This document shows positions 7,435 to 32,290 of a stretch of DNA of 64,000 nt, piece after piece; the first letter of the stretch is position 1, and the number at the start of each line of letters is the position of its first letter. The notes under the pieces are model-generated. The model was given only the letters and a program-made list of their open reading frames with translations, was not told the origin of the DNA and made no database searches. The stretch is from Streptomyces sp. B21-083 (GTDB lineage: Bacteria; Actinomycetota; Actinomycetes; Streptomycetales; Streptomycetaceae): positions 4,464,001-4,528,000 of the forward strand of contig NZ_JARUND010000001.1 in assembly GCF_036898825.1 (NCBI RefSeq), read 5' to 3'. The position numbers were made by a program, and so were the translations under genes.

Positions 7435-7769
7435 GGAGGCGAAACCCTTCCTCATCTTCCTCACGACGCATTTCGCCATGAGACGGATTTGGCACCTTCC
7501 CGAGCCGGGAGCCTCGCTGACCGTAAATGGATCACGAGTGCCGACTGGAGGGTTGCCGGGGCTTCATCGGGCCGTATCCCTCTGCCCCTCTGGATGAGCG
7601 GTATGAAGTTGTGGGGTTGTGCGGTTGTGAACACTGGCGACCTCGGACATGCGATGGTCACCCGCGTTGTTCAAGACTGTAACCGAAGGCTTGGATGGTG
7701 GTGGGAGCCGTCCGAACCGCGAGATACAAGATCGCGCTTCCCCCCATGCAACGTAAGGGAGAGCCGCAC

Positions 7770-17381: not shown

Positions 17382-18377
17382 TCACTTTTTGACTTGACCA
17401 GATTTCAGCCACATCTGGTCCAGGAGTGCGTCGCACTGGTCGCCGTCCTGGCAGGAGACGGTGATGGTGTTCGTACCCTTGTTGAGGGTGGGCCACACGT
17501 AGGTCCGTGTCCAGCCCTTCGCGTAATCGCCCTCGCCAGCCTTCGCGAAGTTCCCCAAGTTCAGCTTGCTTCCAAACTCCTGGCCGTTGACGCTAAGCGT
17601 CATCTCCGCGTCCTTGCCGGGGACGCTGTATCCCACGAAGAGGGTGTAGGCGCCTTCCTTGGGGATGGCATTGACGGTCCAGGTGACCGTGGCGCCGACC
17701 TGGTTGAGCCCTGTCACGTAAATGCCGCCCACCGCACCGGCGCCCTCGACCTCCGACGCCGTCGTCACGCCAGGCCCGAACTTCAGCGCCTTCGCGTCGA
17801 TCTCCGGCAGGTTCTCCTCCGTGACCTCCGAGGCGCTGGCCGACGGGGACGGCTCGGCGCTCTGCCCGGTCGAGGGACTGGCGCCGGCGCCGCCGGCCTT
17901 GTCCTTGTCGCCGTTGCCGCCGCCCATCATCGCCACGGCGATACCGATGACGACCGCGGCGACCACCGCGACGGCACCGATCAGCAGACCCTTGGTGTTG
18001 GGGCCGGAGCCCCGCCCGCCTCGGCCGCCGCCACCGCTGTACGCGGGCTGCTGCGGAGCCGTAGGGCCACCACCGAAGGCCTCGGGCGCCTGGTAGTGGG
18101 TGTTCGGGGCGCCGTACGCCCCCTGCTGCTGCGGGATCGCCTGGCCGTACTGCGCGGTCTGGGCGGTCGGCACGGTCTGGCCGTACGCCGACTGCTGCTG
18201 GCCCTGCGGCGGGCCGCCGTACTGACGCTCGCCGACCGGTCGCGTACGGCCGACCGAGTTCGGGTAGCCGTAGCCGCTGCTCGGCGGCTGGGCACCGGCG
18301 GCCCGCCCGTCTTCGTACAGGTAGCCGAACGGGTCATCGTCCTCGGGCGTGCTCGCGCCGCTGTTGCCGGGAGTCAT
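17382..18377 (-). CDS. Membrane-anchored protein with C-terminal carbohydrate-binding-like domain
   Basis: A 331-residue protein in three parts. Residues 1-125 are Gly/Gln/Tyr/Pro-rich and disordered, probably cytoplasmic. One transmembrane helix (about 128-150, LLIGAVAVVAAVVIGIAVAM) follows. Then a Ser/Pro linker and an extracellular beta-rich domain from about residue 190 with YTLFVGYSVPGKDAEMTLSV and a final Trp-Asn motif, resembling CBM35/CBM6-type modules; two cysteines near CQDGDQCDALLDQMW may pair. Its ATG overlaps the iscB stop, and its GGAGGAG ribosome site is coded inside the last codons of iscB. Confidence 0.7.
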   Translation of the reverse strand: MTPGNSGASTPEDDDPFGYLYEDGRAAGAQPPSSGYGYPNSVGRTRPVGERQYGGPPQGQQQSAYGQTVPTAQTAQYGQAIPQQQGAYGAPNTHYQAPEAFGGGPTAPQQPAYSGGGGRGGRGSGPNTKGLLIGAVAVVAAVVIGIAVAMMGGGNGDKDKAGGAGASPSTGQSAEPSPSASASEVTEENLPEIDAKALKFGPGVTTASEVEGAGAVGGIYVTGLNQVGATVTWTVNAIPKEGAYTLFVGYSVPGKDAEMTLSVNGQEFGSKLNLGNFAKAGEGDYAKGWTRTYVWPTLNKGTNTITVSCQDGDQCDALLDQMWLKSGQVKK

Positions 18378-19837
18378 CGAGCTCCTCCTGCGTCGAAACC
18401 GGCTGCTCCGGCCGGGAATTGTGCGTTCTGTTCTTCTGCACGGATGACATAGCCGTAGCCATCCGCGCGTTGGAGTAGACGCACATACTGATGACCGATG
18501 CCTTGCACGATGCCGTGCTGGGTACGGATGTTGAAGCGTCCCGATGCTCGCACAGCGACCCGGCCAGTATGCGTACCGGCCTTTGCACCCACCGGCACGA
18601 TGGCGCGCACGAGATCGCCCGTTTGGAAGCCGTGATGTGACTTCGTACGAGGCAACGCGAGACGGGGAAATCCGTGCTTGTCACTTCGGGTGCGCGCGTA
18701 GCCACCGCGTCCGGTAGCGGCAGCGATCAGTACCTGAGACGGGTAGCGCACGATCCAGCGATCGGGCCCTACCTCACCAACCGCCAGCGCATCGAGGGTG
18801 TGCGACTTGGTCAGTCCACAGAGGACACGGTTGTACTTCGTCCTCCCTCCGGACCAGCACGAAACCGGGTGTCCAAGGCCGCGAAGCCGCTCAGAGAGCC
18901 GGTAGCGAGTCGCGTTCATCACAGCCGCGTCTCGCAGGGGAGTCTTGGCCTGTCGTTTGAGCTGTGTGACGAGAGCGGGCCTGCCCCTCAAGAAGTCCTC
19001 GGCAGAACGGGACCCCTTGGCCTGGTTGCAAGGCGCACATGACAGAGCGAGGTTCGAAACGCGGTCTGAGCCACCACTCGCCTTGGGAAGAATGTGATCG
19101 ATCTGAAGGGGAACACCACTCTTGTCGCAGTAGACGCAACGTCGCCCCCACTTCTCAAGCAGGTAATGGCGCACTTCGTATCCGGCCAAGGTTCCCTGCT
19201 GGTACTCAACCCCAGAGAGCTCCCCTCCGGCCGAGATGGCATGAGTGTCGAAAGCGACCCGCTCGACGTGCACCGCGGTCAGCGGAGCCAGCCGCGCCAG
19301 GCGCTCCACCTGGGAGGCAGTAGTGTCCACCCTGTGCTGCAGAGAAGGCGGCAGCCACCCCTCCGAACGGCACCGGTTGTCGAAGCGAGGGGCACGGTAA
19401 CGCGTGTTAGCCACTCGCCGCCGCCGCCGGTAACTCGCGCGCTGTTCCATGCTCTTGCGGATGGCCGAGCCTCGGTGCACCAGTTCCACCGCGTACAACC
19501 CACGCCGGAGAGCGGCGACTTCACCGGCCTCGGCAGACACTCGCGTGATGTCATCGGTCACGGCGATGCCCGTCGCCTTCGACCCCGGGTCGATCCGAAC
19601 CGCGACGCCACTGACTTCCGAGTTCTCCAGAAGTCGATCCTTGATGCGGATCGTGAAGGGCGTGTGCCGGGCGACAACAGCCCTGCTCTTTCTCAGAAGT
19701 TCGCGAGCACGGGCAGGATGGCAAGGCATCATCGGGCGTCCCTTGCGGTCCAGAACGAACACCCGGGGTGCTCCTGGGCCGGACACCGGTGGCTGGCGCA
19801 ACCCTGGTATGTCCAGCGCCTCGTTGTCGTGCGGCAT
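18374..19837 (-). CDS. iscB: IscB RNA-guided nuclease (IS200/IS605-associated)
   Basis: A 487-residue IscB, the Cas9-ancestor family. Domains in order: PLMP-type N-terminal domain (VFVLDRKGRPMMPCHPARAR, residues 26-45, motif varied to PMMP), RuvC-I (RIDPGSKATGIAV, D83), Arg-rich bridge helix (about 128-151), RuvC-II (AVHVERVAFDTHA, E192), HNH (CVYC with C234/C237, IDH with H248, CAPC with C267/C270), RuvC-III (SHTLDALAVG, H346/D349) and a C-terminal beta domain (about 400-460) that in IscBs contacts the target-adjacent motif. All catalytic residues are present. Start ATG 19837 has GAGGAA close upstream. No TnpA transposase is linked. A candidate omega-RNA lies upstream. The stop TGA overlaps the next gene's ATG. 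Confidence 0.92.
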   Translation of the reverse strand: MPHDNEALDIPGLRQPPVSGPGAPRVFVLDRKGRPMMPCHPARARELLRKSRAVVARHTPFTIRIKDRLLENSEVSGVAVRIDPGSKATGIAVTDDITRVSAEAGEVAALRRGLYAVELVHRGSAIRKSMEQRASYRRRRRVANTRYRAPRFDNRCRSEGWLPPSLQHRVDTTASQVERLARLAPLTAVHVERVAFDTHAISAGGELSGVEYQQGTLAGYEVRHYLLEKWGRRCVYCDKSGVPLQIDHILPKASGGSDRVSNLALSCAPCNQAKGSRSAEDFLRGRPALVTQLKRQAKTPLRDAAVMNATRYRLSERLRGLGHPVSCWSGGRTKYNRVLCGLTKSHTLDALAVGEVGPDRWIVRYPSQVLIAAATGRGGYARTRSDKHGFPRLALPRTKSHHGFQTGDLVRAIVPVGAKAGTHTGRVAVRASGRFNIRTQHGIVQGIGHQYVRLLQRADGYGYVIRAEEQNAQFPAGAAGFDAGGAR

Positions 19838-19855
19838 GTGTTCCTCGCTGATGAT

Positions 19856-19998
19856 GCTGCCGTCACCGGCAGCGCGTTCTCCCGCACTCAGCCAATAGAG
19901 TGAGTGCTGTGTGACTCCCGCTCGCGAAGGTGATCGCTCACGGGTATCCCCTCGCCCATGTCCCGTACCGGCTTTCTTGCCCTATTCGGACAAGAGCC
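19856..19998 (-). ncRNA. Candidate IscB omega-RNA scaffold
   Basis: IscB guide RNAs are encoded just upstream of the gene, guide first. Reading the minus strand from 19998, the sequence starts with a strong hairpin (GGCTCTTGTCC paired with GGGCAAG-AA-AGCC, 19970-19998), continues through G-rich segments, and ends with two hairpins: GCACTCA/TGAGTGC with a 10-base loop (about 19882-19907) and GCTGCC/GGCAGC (19856-19873), 18 bases before the iscB ATG. The GGCTCTT opening recalls the published OgeuIscB scaffold (from memory). The 5' boundary is inferred; it is shorter than the OgeuIscB RNA. Confidence 0.5.
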
Positions 19999-20107
19999 TG
20001 TACCCCGTTTCGTCTCTGCTCCCAGAGGTGTCTGCAGGTACAGGTTCCAGAGCAGGCCGCTGAGGAAGCACGGCCAGGTGGGTCGGCGTACCCGCACGGA
20101 ACGTAGC

Positions 20108-20132
20108 CATCAAGGTCACCCCCTCATTGATG
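20108..20132. other. Hairpin in the iscB-cdgB gap
   Basis: CATCAA and TTGATG form a 6-bp stem around a 13-base loop. It could close cdgB transcription or belong to the promoter of the displaced downstream gene. The rest of 20015-20294 shows no gene. Confidence 0.3.
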
Positions 20133-20294
20133 ACGGCTCGGGCTGGTCACTCAGAGCCCACCCGCGACCGGACGAGCCCCGGCCGTCCGGCCGTGGAGCG
20201 AGTGACCCCTTGGTCTCCTCAATGCAAGCGAGCCTACCCGCTCCCAGAGGGCCAAACGGGTGGCGTTCGCCGCATCAACCAACTCACCTGCGAC

Positions 20295-22025
20295 TTATCC
20301 CGCACGCCGGTGCTGTTTGGGACGAGATCGTTTCTCGATGTACATCCGCTCGTCCGCCGACTTCAGGACTTCGTCCGCCGTCATCCCGCAGTGTGCCCAC
20401 CCGATACCGAAACTCGCACCGACCCGCATCGCGCGGCCGTCGACCCGGATGGGCTGGATGATCTCGTTGCGCAGGCGTACGGCCAGGTCCTGGGCGTCGG
20501 CCCGGCCCAGGCCGTCGGCGAGGACCACGAACTCGTCGCCGCCGAGCCGGGCCACCGTGTCGCCGTCGCGCACGGCCCCGCCGAGCCGCCGGGCCACCTC
20601 GATCAGTACCGCGTCGCCGGCGTTGTGCCCGAAACGGTCGTTGATCGACTTGAAGCCGTCGAGGTCGCAGAAGAGAACCGCGAGCCCCTTCGTCCCGTCG
20701 TCGTGTTCACCCTCGGGGGCGACGGCGTGGACGTGGTGGTCGTACGCGCCGTACACCTCGGGGGCGCCACGGAAGTCGAACCCGTGGCCGTTCGCGTCGT
20801 ACGGCTGGATTCCGGCGTCCGTCACGGGCGCCGGCACCGCCGTGTACTGGTCGTGTGTACCGAAGGGGTCCAGCTGGGCGTGGCCGTAGGCTGCGTCGAC
20901 CGACTCGACCAGTCCGGGAGCCGCCGTCTGCGGGCGCTGGCAGAGGCGGGAGCTGAGCCGGGCACGCAGCTCGGCGGAGTTGGGCAGACCGGTGAGGGAG
21001 TCGTGGGAGGCGCGGTGGGCGAGCTGCAGCTCGCGGCGCTTGCGCTCCTCGATGTCCTCGACGTGGGTGAGCAGGAAGCGCGGCCCGTCGGCGGCGTCCG
21101 CGACGACGGAGTTGCGCAGCGACGCCCACAGGTACGAGCCGTCCCGGCGGCAGAGCCGCAGTTCGGCGCGCCCGCCCTCGGCGGAGGTGCGCAGCAGGGT
21201 GCCTATGTCCTCGGGGTGCACGAGGTCGGAGAAGGCGTAGCGGCGCATCGCGGAGGCGGGGCGGCCCAACAGACGGCACAGGGCGTCGTTGGTGCGGAGT
21301 ATTCGCCCCTGCTGGTCGCCGCCCATCTCGGCGATGGCCATGCCGGAGGGCGCGTACTCGAAGGCCTGACGGAAGCTTTCCTCACTGGCCCGGAGCGCCT
21401 GCTGCTCGCGTTCAAGTCTGACCAGTGCCCGCTGCATATTCGCGCGTAGACGTGCGTTGCTGATCGCGATGGCGGCCTGGAACGCGTACATCTGGAGCGC
21501 TTCCTTGCCCCACGCCCCCGGTCGGCGGCCGTTGCGCGGCCGGTCCACGGACAGCACGCCGATCAGTTCGCCGCAGGTGCCGCCGGGCACGCTCGGGGTG
21601 AACATCGGTGCGAAGAGCCGGTCCGAGGGGTGCCACTCGTCCTCGAAGCGCGGGGCGGGGCCGTCGGTGTACCACTGCGGGACGTCGTCGTCGTCGAGGA
21701 CCCAGCCCTCGGTGTGCGGTATGAACACCAGGTCGCCCCAGGCCTCGCCCATGACGAGCCGGCGTTCCCAGGAGTCGCGTGAGCCGACCCGGCCGGTGAT
21801 GAGGGCCTCGGCGGCGGAGTTTCCGGCGAAGGCGGCGACGACGAGATCGCCGTCGGGGCGGACGAGGTTGACGCAGGCCAGCTCGTAACCGAGGCCGTTG
21901 ACGACGCCGTCGGCGACGGTCTGGAGGGTGTCCGCCAGACTGCGCGCCGTGTTCATGTCCGCCATGACCTGGTGCAGCTGCCGCAAGGTCGCAAGACGGA
22001 CGTACGGCTCCTGGTCGGTCTCCAT
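20295..22025 (-). CDS. cdgB: GAF-PAS-GGDEF diguanylate cyclase (CdgB)
   Basis: A 576-residue cytosolic signalling enzyme. An N-terminal GAF domain (about 15-195) is followed by a PAS/PAC domain (about 215-340, LTHVEDIEERKR) and a GGDEF domain (about 345-570). The active site GGDEF is intact at 495-499 and an RxxD inhibitory site sits at 486-489 (RDGD), so it should make c-di-GMP with product inhibition. About 75 extra residues rich in His/Tyr/Asp lie between NSAELRARLSSRL and LAVLFCDLDGFK. The S. coelicolor syntenic gene SCO4281 affects development and is a BldD target. A strong palindrome lies upstream. Confidence 0.9.
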   Translation of the reverse strand: METDQEPYVRLATLRQLHQVMADMNTARSLADTLQTVADGVVNGLGYELACVNLVRPDGDLVVAAFAGNSAAEALITGRVGSRDSWERRLVMGEAWGDLVFIPHTEGWVLDDDDVPQWYTDGPAPRFEDEWHPSDRLFAPMFTPSVPGGTCGELIGVLSVDRPRNGRRPGAWGKEALQMYAFQAAIAISNARLRANMQRALVRLEREQQALRASEESFRQAFEYAPSGMAIAEMGGDQQGRILRTNDALCRLLGRPASAMRRYAFSDLVHPEDIGTLLRTSAEGGRAELRLCRRDGSYLWASLRNSVVADAADGPRFLLTHVEDIEERKRRELQLAHRASHDSLTGLPNSAELRARLSSRLCQRPQTAAPGLVESVDAAYGHAQLDPFGTHDQYTAVPAPVTDAGIQPYDANGHGFDFRGAPEVYGAYDHHVHAVAPEGEHDDGTKGLAVLFCDLDGFKSINDRFGHNAGDAVLIEVARRLGGAVRDGDTVARLGGDEFVVLADGLGRADAQDLAVRLRNEIIQPIRVDGRAMRVGASFGIGWAHCGMTADEVLKSADERMYIEKRSRPKQHRRAG

Positions 22026-28055: not shown

Positions 28056-28724
28056 TCACCGCCCCGGCCTCTCCCTCGTCCCCTTCGCCTTCGCCTTCGC
28101 CTTCCACACCCGCGCATCCCGCCCACGCGTCAACGGCCAACACGCGAACCCCACCAGCGCCGCGGTGAAATGCCCCAGATCGGTGAACGTCCGCGACACG
28201 ACAAGTGGCAACCCGTACACGACAAGAACACCCACCACATACACACACCGCCACCACGGCCGACCGATCCGGTACGTCAGCACGGCCACAACCCCCGCCA
28301 GCCCGTAACTCACCCCGAAATCCATCGTGTCCGCCGCCGACGCCGGCGCCGACCCGTCCCGGATCGCCCGCCACACCGCACCCTGACTCACCAACGTCGC
28401 CAGCACATGCGCACTCATCCACACCACCAGCCACCGCACGGTCCCCAACCACCGCTCGACCCCTGCGTGAAACACCGAGTACAGAACGAGATACGGAGTC
28501 CACCACCCGTCGATCCACATCGCACTGGAGATCAACACACGCACCGGATGGTCCGACAACTCGTTGATGTTCGTCGACCGCTGCCGCAGAAACTCCTCCT
28601 GGAACTCCGCCGACATGTGGTGCACAGCCACCGTCGTGACGAACAGGACGAGCAACCACAGGTACGTGCCCGGAGCGCTACGGACGTACGCCCACACCCT
28701 GCGCGGGCCCACCGGAAATCGCAT
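28056..28724 (-). CDS. Rhomboid-like membrane protein
   Basis: A 222-residue membrane protein with about six hydrophobic helices. A GVSYG motif (DFGVSYGLAGVVAVL) and a later His in a small-residue helix (LGHFTAALVGF) occupy the positions of the Ser-His pair of rhomboid intramembrane proteases. GxSYG differs from the usual GxSG, so activity is uncertain. A Lys/Ala-rich basic tail ends the protein. The ATG at 28724 is one option; upstream GTG/ATG codons are in frame. Divergent from the phosphotransferase gene, with 33 bases between starts. Confidence 0.7.
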   Translation of the reverse strand: MRFPVGPRRVWAYVRSAPGTYLWLLVLFVTTVAVHHMSAEFQEEFLRQRSTNINELSDHPVRVLISSAMWIDGWWTPYLVLYSVFHAGVERWLGTVRWLVVWMSAHVLATLVSQGAVWRAIRDGSAPASAADTMDFGVSYGLAGVVAVLTYRIGRPWWRCVYVVGVLVVYGLPLVVSRTFTDLGHFTAALVGFACWPLTRGRDARVWKAKAKAKGTRERPGR

Positions 28725-28757
28725 GCGCCAATTTACGCACGCACATACAGTCGCCCG

Positions 28758-29645
28758 GTGATCCGCATCCACGTCCCCGACGAACTGGCCGCCACCCAGC
28801 TCAAGTACAACGGGGAGGCAGGACGCGCCTTCATCACCGCACTCCCCACCCGCGCCGCCGACTTCCTCGACCGCTGGAACCTACGCCTCGACGGCCCCTC
28901 CATGCACGGCGTGACAGCCCTCGTCCTCCCGGTCCTCCGACCCGACGACACCCCCGCCGTCCTCAAACTCCAGCTCCTGGACGACGAGAGCGAAGGCGAA
29001 CCGACCGCCCTACGCCACTGGAACGGCAACCACGCCGTACGCCTCCTCGACCACGACCCCACCACCGGAACCATGCTCCTGGAACGCCTCGACCAGACCC
29101 GCATGCTGTCCCACCACCCCGACGCCCACGAAGCCACCCTGATCATCGCCGACCTCCTCGCCCACCTCACCGCCGAACCGGCCCCACCCGGCATCCGCCG
29201 CCTCGGCGACACAGCGGCAGGAATGCTCACCCAGGCGCCCCTGGCACTCCCCCGCATCCCGGCCCCCGAGACCCGCGCCCTCCTCCAGGACTGCGCCGCA
29301 GCCCTCCGCGAAGTCGCCCCCGACCCCGGCGACCGCCTCCTCCACTGGGACCTCCACGACGAGAACGTCCTCGCCACCGACCGCGCCCCCTGGCTCGCCA
29401 TCGACCCGAAACCCCTCGCCGGGGACCCCGGCTTCGACCTCTGGCCGGCCATCAACAACCGCTTCGACCCCGACGACATCGTCTGGCGCTTCGACGCCCT
29501 GACAGCCGCCCTCTCCCTCGACCGGGAACGCGCCCGCGCCTGGACCCTCGCCCGAGTACTCCAGAACGCCCTCTGGACCATCAAGGACAACGCCCCCCTG
29601 GACGAACAGGACCTGGAACTCGCCCGCCGACTACGCCAGGCCTGA
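28758..29645 (+). CDS. Aminoglycoside phosphotransferase family (streptomycin 6-kinase type)
   Basis: A 295-residue kinase-fold protein. The catalytic loop is LLHWDLHDENVLA (HxDxxxxN) and the metal-binding loop is AIDPKPLAGDPGFDLWP, the exact signature of the APH(6)/hydroxyurea phosphotransferase family; AVLKLQLLDDES carries the ATP lysine. Streptomyces chromosomes often hold such genes without making streptomycin, so it may be an intrinsic low-level resistance or housekeeping kinase. GTG start at 28758 is leaderless-like (no clear ribosome site). Confidence 0.85.
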   Translation: MIRIHVPDELAATQLKYNGEAGRAFITALPTRAADFLDRWNLRLDGPSMHGVTALVLPVLRPDDTPAVLKLQLLDDESEGEPTALRHWNGNHAVRLLDHDPTTGTMLLERLDQTRMLSHHPDAHEATLIIADLLAHLTAEPAPPGIRRLGDTAAGMLTQAPLALPRIPAPETRALLQDCAAALREVAPDPGDRLLHWDLHDENVLATDRAPWLAIDPKPLAGDPGFDLWPAINNRFDPDDIVWRFDALTAALSLDRERARAWTLARVLQNALWTIKDNAPLDEQDLELARRLRQA

Positions 29646-30290: not shown

Positions 30291-30295
30291 GGCTG

Positions 30296-30371
30296 AGCCC
30301 CCTATCGGATTCGAACCGATGACCTGCTGTTTACAAGACAGCCGCTCTGGGCCGGACTGAGCTAAGGAGGC
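30296..30371 (-). tRNA. tRNA-Thr (anticodon TGT)
   Basis: Minus-strand cloverleaf: acceptor GCCTCCT pairs with AGGGGGC (one G-T pair), D stem GCTC/GAGC, anticodon stem with loop CTTGTAA giving anticodon TGT, T arm with GGTTCGAATCC. It decodes ACA (and ACG by wobble), rare codons here. No CCA is encoded. Beside it is the tnpB element. Confidence 0.93.
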
Positions 30372-32211: not shown

Positions 32212-32237
32212 AGTCCACGTCTGTGGACTACACCACC
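32212..32237. promoter_or_regulatory. Palindrome with DasR-like box upstream of msiK
   Basis: AGTCCAC-GTCT-GTGGACT is a perfect 7-bp inverted repeat (32212-32229), overlapped by TGTGGACTACACCACC (32222-32237), which matches the dre consensus at about 11 of 16 positions. It is 54 bases before the msiK ATG. The gap from tnpB to msiK holds no gene. Confidence 0.45.
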
Positions 32238-32290
32238 TTCCACTACGGATCGTCCGGCACGTTCCTGCCGGTGAAGGGGGCCTAGTACCC

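Follow-up and report, generated by a model that had tools for sequence, protein, structure and literature searches.

IscB nucleases work with guides of about 16 nt, IsrB proteins are devoid of the HNH domain, and TldR designates a nuclease-dead regulator. Homing endonuclease genes occupy the same site across species, are scattered in their distribution and evolve under purifying selection. To our knowledge, it is still unsettled how IscB RNAs carrying a host-derived 5' guide are transcribed and why many IscBs stand without a transposase. HEARO elements were reportedly first described by Weinberg et al. in 2009 as consisting of an RNA and an HNH ORF, with insertion at ATGA or GTGA. For IsrB, NTGA/TTGA/ATGA is given as the target motif (DtIsrB), and an HNH linker is placed at the position of the HNH domain (PMC9581776). 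TnpB insertion sequences have been presented as a gene drive in which the nuclease cuts uninterrupted sites, and this was shown in plasmids (PMC11870625).

The locus studied here lies in a 64,000-nt stretch of DNA from Streptomyces sp. B21-083 (the window), where iscB occupies positions 18374 to 19837 of the minus strand. Its intact ORF encodes 487 amino acids and comprises the PLMP domain (in the form PMMP), RuvC with the arginine-rich helix, HNH and the C-terminal target-motif domain. The guided_IscB profile (NCBIfam NF040563) matches residues 26-354 with 411.8 bits (E 1.7e-123; cut-off 175), and Pfam RRXRR and HNH are matched with E values of 1.4e-64 and 1.1e-11, respectively. When the window protein was aligned with 15 relatives (16 rows, out to Kouleothrix and cyanobacteria), the RuvC D/E/H/D and HNH H residues (D83, E192, H248, H346 and D349) and the zinc cysteine pairs (C234/C237/C267/C270) proved invariant. 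The same alignment, together with the RRXRR match, identifies the PLMP domain and the arginine-rich helix, with PMMP at residues 35-38 (a change also present in S. cellulosae), and the C-terminal domain is conserved up to the DGYGY motif. An AlphaFold2 model based on the 16 rows (mean pLDDT 70.7) has strands in its C-terminal part, and the ten best Foldseek matches to this model are all IscB/IsrB structures, at modest TM-scores of 0.36-0.46; among solved structures, TbaIscB (9k30) is the closest in sequence (E 2.4e-39). The original prediction had claimed a complete IscB with all catalytic residues and zinc cysteine pairs, a PLMP motif changed to PMMP and an intact target-reading domain, and each of these elements was borne out. 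It had also proposed an IscB profile search, naming a plain HNH endonuclease as the contrary outcome; the search was positive, and a plain HNH endonuclease is ruled out by the extent of the profile match. By every testable feature of the sequence, the protein belongs with the IscBs, RNA-guided cleavage being a prediction.

Two features were absent from the original prediction, namely an omegaRNA directly upstream of iscB and an exact insertion point. The HEARO/omegaRNA scaffold was located at 19944-20206 on the same minus strand, with 20206 corresponding to the left end of the element. RF02033 matches this region over its full length with 75.4 bits (E 9.5e-15), which does not reach the gathering score of 83; since the default RNA scan of the window applies that score, the match was absent from it. 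Covariation also points to the RNA, as 36 of the 62 predicted pairs display at least one two-sided compensatory change in an alignment of 24 sequences of the genus (five from the insertion site described below, site A, and 19 picked among other loci). Across the genus, RF02033 was matched at E≤1e-4 in 39/392 genomes (45 copies), with zero copies above the gathering score.

The borders of the element follow from the alignment of the occupied allele with 14 empty alleles, which were collected from relatives through matches to the upstream GGDEF gene. This alignment delimits a 1,829-bp unit (18378-20206), inserted between the ribosome-binding site of a host gene (left) and its ATGA start (right). 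The empty allele reads, in its typical form and with small variations, ...TTGAGGAGACCAAGGG immediately followed by ATGACGCCCGG. The occupied allele of the window reads ...TTGAGGAGACCAAGGG, then, across the left junction, GTCACTCGC, the omegaRNA, iscB and GCAGGAGGAGCTCG, and finally, across the right junction, ATGACTCCCGG. The predicted guide, TTGAGGAGACCAAGGG (20207-20222, minus strand), is the displaced ribosome-binding site of the host and aligns with the guide-like site that precedes ATGAC in the empty alleles. The ATGA at 18374-18377 (minus strand) is the start codon of the downstream gene, includes the iscB stop (TGA) and is the predicted target-adjacent motif; this stop/start overlap is identical in all five carriers of the element. 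On the other side of the junction, the right end (18378-18389, minus strand) contains AGGAGG at 18384-18389, a sequence found in four of the five carriers (AGGAG in MNU76) and predicted to be the replacement ribosome-binding site of the downstream gene. The latter (17382-18377, minus strand) encodes 331 amino acids and matches CBM_35 weakly, at 23.4 bits (cut-off 28); its orthologues stand after the site in relatives. The upstream gene (20295-22025, minus strand) encodes, according to a domain search, a GAF-PAS-GGDEF protein with a diguanylate cyclase domain, and was matched at E≤1e-100 in 25 of the 41 genomes searched. The gap between the two host genes measures 121-234 nt in 11 empty genomes versus 1,921-2,003 nt in the five carriers. 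Related genomes thus have site A either occupied or empty, the unit being present in five species: the window strain, G236, S. cellulosae (taken to be G177), S. caeruleatus (taken to be G349, on the strength of an identical 1.5-kb stretch) and sp. MNU76, whose IscBs share 76-82% identity with that of the window in the alignment.

The locus is probably a solo IscB-omegaRNA element that has a fixed home site at a start codon and behaves in a homing-like manner. A host promoter would read into the omegaRNA and iscB, and the 16 nt of host sequence at the 5' end of the RNA would act as the guide. The IscB complex would then cut empty alleles, in which the guide sequence is followed by ATGA and which would enter through gene transfer or result from loss of the element. 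Repair with the occupied allele as template would restore or spread the element, in the manner of a homing endonuclease. Cleavage of the occupied allele itself would be prevented because the element parts the guide site from ATGA and has a right end unlike the guide (12-14 of 16 positions differ in the five carriers). The downstream gene, in turn, would survive because the right end provides a substitute ribosome-binding site, coupled to the stop codon of iscB.

Guides followed by ATGA do match some empty alleles of site A, for which the specificity of the nuclease is predicted. A pattern search for empty site-A alleles gave one match in each of 94/392 genomes, taken as empty alleles by pattern alone. 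The 16 bases of the window guide plus ATGA are found exactly in three of these 94 matches (G212, G253 and G394), as is the guide common to S. cellulosae and MNU76 plus ATGA (G144, G234 and G286). The S. caeruleatus guide plus ATGA is exact in two (G333 and G379), the 14 ATGA-proximal bases of the window guide occur in 16, and the guide of G236 could not be matched by this pattern by design. In a comparison of 30 rows of empty alleles, 11 of which are second copies of the same genomes, the window, S. cellulosae and MNU76 have guides with exact matches, and the guides of G236 and S. caeruleatus were at least two mismatches away from every row; for G236, this counts against the homing-like reading. 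Within its own 10.5-Mb genome, the window guide has its own locus as the sole match with up to one mismatch and 99 places with up to three; in the 30 places inspected, neither ATGA nor GTGA follows at any of the 29 besides the own locus. When 14 guide bases plus ATGA were used as a second query, the same genome yielded, besides the own locus, a single place with two mismatches, which both lie close to the motif, and four with three.

The upstream host sequence also carries a -10-like box, TAGGCT (20231-20236, minus strand), which starts 30 nt before the left end and may serve as a promoter element. The box (TACGCT in S. caeruleatus) begins 30-32 nt before the left end in all five site-A carriers. 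Transcription starts about 7 nt after a -10 box, and because boxes of this kind lie 27-32 nt before the omegaRNA, host transcription could begin at the guide. TANNNT was surveyed in 46 oriented loci, reduced to 44 by dropping L195 and L197 (in which the omegaRNA 5' end is seemingly truncated); the survey excludes L198-L205, and sites were assigned by hand. The motif stands 27-32 nt before the left end in 5/5 site-A loci, 19/21 loci of a second site (site B, see below) and 0/18 loci elsewhere, with a background farther upstream of 0.09 loci per position on average. As the rows of one site are related, these figures represent two sites and not 24 independent cases, and the 0/18 loci at other sites exclude a promoter rule valid for every IscB in the genus. 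In empty site-A alleles, the box stands 40-61 nt from ATG in the 94 pattern matches, obtained with a pattern that allowed for 25 nt, and 40-138 nt from it in all but one of 22 loci, a set in which the start of L047 is misplaced, two rows start with ATGGCT and the box counted in L041 is TACGGT. The exception (G012) has its box 33 nt from ATG, near the spacing of the carriers, and a different ribosome-binding site. The -10-like box and the guide are separated by a short leader in 5/5 carriers, in 0/94 pattern matches and, nearly, in 1/22 loci. A simple scan of the E. coli type found no promoter. The box spacing can be viewed as an adaptation that is plausible for two sites and is not a rule.

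A different history, which seems possible but on balance doubtful, would consist of one ancient insertion followed by vertical inheritance and repeated loss, with a nuclease that drives nothing at present or just resists loss. It would accommodate the divergence of the genes, since dS is higher for IscB (0.71-1.27) than for the GGDEF gene (0.33-0.47) in ten of ten pairs (NG86; codon bias differs between the two genes). As the divergence of IscB is not below that of its flank, a recent spread is unsupported. The short leader common to the five carriers would also agree with such a history, as would the coding flanks, where no conversion tract common to the carriers was seen by eye. What speaks against it is the need for many independent and precise losses. 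A tree built from the two flanking genes of five carrier and 11 empty genomes (16 in total), a gene pair that may itself hide recombination, rejects the grouping of the carriers in a single clade (p-AU 0.00032). This tree implies five occupied/empty changes, at least three of which are forced by well-supported branches, and the site-A element is known from four of the 392 genomes surveyed. Moreover, no scar of the element was visible by eye in the 14 aligned empty alleles, and purifying selection on iscB (dN/dS of 0.131-0.163 over ten carrier pairs with NG86; 0.105-0.166 with YN00) argues against an inert gene. On these estimates, the site-A iscB is maintained and old, and both repeated gain and repeated loss are compatible with the data.

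It appears unlikely that the unit is a copy of an ordinary IS200/IS605-type transposon, mobilised in trans by a genomic Y1 transposase. Two such transposases are indeed encoded outside the window, other IscBs of the genus sit at many different sites, and one genome has at least five copies, all of which would suit transposition. Against this stand the single iscB copy in the window genome, the identical site in five species and the distance of both Y1 transposases, which lie more than 100 kb away (the nearer one at about 108 kb). The Y1 transposase domain (PF01797), the cis mark of an IS200/IS605 (ISC) transposon, was not found in the window. Transposase domains were equally missing from ten chosen neighbour ORFs (8.8-29.6 kb), of which eight matched other Pfam domains and two had no match at 1e-5, and from the three nearest genes, two of which have non-transposase domains and one no match; the original prediction of a gene with no TnpA or other transposase nearby agrees with these results. 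Other features of the window include an ORF (28170-29645, plus strand) that matches the aminoglycoside/hydroxyurea kinase domain APH_6_hur, a SAM riboswitch (7449-7600, minus strand), an msiK RNA (32228-32286, plus strand) and a tRNA-Thr (30295-30371, minus strand).

That the host keeps the gene as an RNA-guided nuclease for defence or gene regulation is very improbable: the cis transposase that was not found, the single genomic copy, the dN/dS of 0.13-0.16 and the overlap of the iscB stop with the start of a conserved gene would fit such a role, but the gene is missing from close relatives, its predicted guide points at the element's own empty site, and its nuclease residues are intact, unlike those of nuclease-dead regulators. 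The original prediction had left the choice between a host-kept nuclease and a non-autonomous element, and the second option fits better because of the exact ends, the empty site in close relatives, the carriers that do not form one clade and the guide that spells the empty site. The first fits less well, though purifying selection leaves room for it.

Actinobacterial IscBs are not rare in the genus, since 41/392 genomes have a match at E≤1e-60, the threshold used here; matches at E≤0.001 were set aside (293 of 295, among the matches listed, being mostly HNH-only). Site B (L184 and relatives) accounts for 21 of the 44 omegaRNA loci and lies before a short ORF of approximately M-x-x-x-R-T-R-E-V-A-A-G. 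The sequence of this ORF is present in 57 of 71 genomes searched, and the neighbouring genes resemble, by eye and from their translations, a RidA-type gene and citrate synthase. The TANNNT box stands 27-29 nt before the left end in 19/21 site-B loci, and a box starts 25-27 nt before the corresponding GTG in 25 rows that have no strong IscB match. The right end and the guide differ at 4-11 of 16 positions in the 19 of 21 loci that were measurable. The eight motif-proximal guide bases differ from the right end of the same locus by 0-2 in 17 of these 19, so that distal mismatches would have to protect the occupied allele from cleavage. A clean insertion at site B was not upheld: in a comparison of nine loci, one of them without a left match, the left-flank match to empty alleles mostly breaks off some 130-220 nt ahead of the left end. 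In the same nine loci, a native-like promoter is found on the right side of the elements. At two site-B loci (L180 and L182), the guide resembles the codons of the short ORF itself (such as CCGGACGCGCGAG) and not its ribosome-binding site, as if the guide had been re-aimed downstream with the -10 spacing kept. Another locus (L219, in G017), without a strong IscB match, aligns with the occupied right flanks to about 228 nt before the motif, into the 3' end of iscB, and is possibly the relic of a lost element.

Beyond site B, 12 of 16 distinct sites have, in the 160 nt that follow iscB, an ATGA or GTGA from which a frame of 100 codons or more extends, compared with 29% of random windows (2,660/9,200). 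This survey covered 22 of 23 rows (L181 left out), with sites grouped by hand and frames taken from the sequence only, and is no more than suggestive of the start codon as a general landing site of IscBs. One genome (G257) has at least five IscB matches with 60-62% identity (L012, L159 and L161), plus L170 and L172 with omegaRNA and iscB; other IscB lineages therefore have several copies per genome. Four loci (L009, L030, L031 and L033) have IscBs with internal stops or split into two frames. IscB relatives were also found on plasmids (50/72,556 records at E≤1e-40), the best being from S. canus (56%), whose record already carries an IscB annotation, and more distant ones in phages (8/50,697 records at E≤1e-20).

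The homing-like reading can be extended, tentatively, to a wider proposal. Some Streptomyces IscB elements, located at promoter-proximal ribosome-binding sites, may home under RNA guidance and be adapted to the conserved leaders of their hosts. In such elements, the transcription start, and not RNA processing, would set the 5' end of the guide one guide length before the element, the start codon would be the target motif, and the right end would rebuild the ribosome-binding site. With a guide defined by the start site, the primary 5' end is expected some 16-17 nt ahead of GUCACUCGC. If true, this geometry would account for both the fixed guide length and the tolerated presence of the element next to a start codon. 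Occupied and empty alleles of site A form natural pairs in an experimentally tractable genus, which makes guide-end mapping, empty-site cleavage and homing directly testable.

Compared with the described IscB/HEARO systems (OMEGA nucleases; OgeuIscB, TbaIscB, HfmIscB), the window element has the same domain order, catalytic residues and upstream HEARO-type RNA. It differs from them in its fixed site between ribosome-binding site and start codon in five species, in a right end that would rebuild the ribosome-binding site, and in a -10-like box placed upstream at about one guide length plus the start distance. With homing endonuclease genes it shares the constancy of the site, the scattered distribution and the purifying selection, its targeting relying instead on a predicted guide RNA. 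The combination of an RNA with an HNH ORF and the insertion at ATGA/GTGA are features it has in common with the HEARO elements reportedly described by Weinberg et al. in 2009. Its predicted ATGA motif resembles the NTGA/TTGA/ATGA motif given for DtIsrB (PMC9581776), from which the window IscB is set apart by its HNH domain. In relation to the TnpB gene drive (PMC11870625), the window element is an IscB, is chromosomal and would cut uninterrupted sites by analogy. No description of the site-A geometry was found in the open-access literature searched. New with respect to it are the recurrent site, one sequence that serves as stop, start and predicted target motif, a ribosome-binding site that the element would rebuild, and the distance at which the promoter-like box stands.
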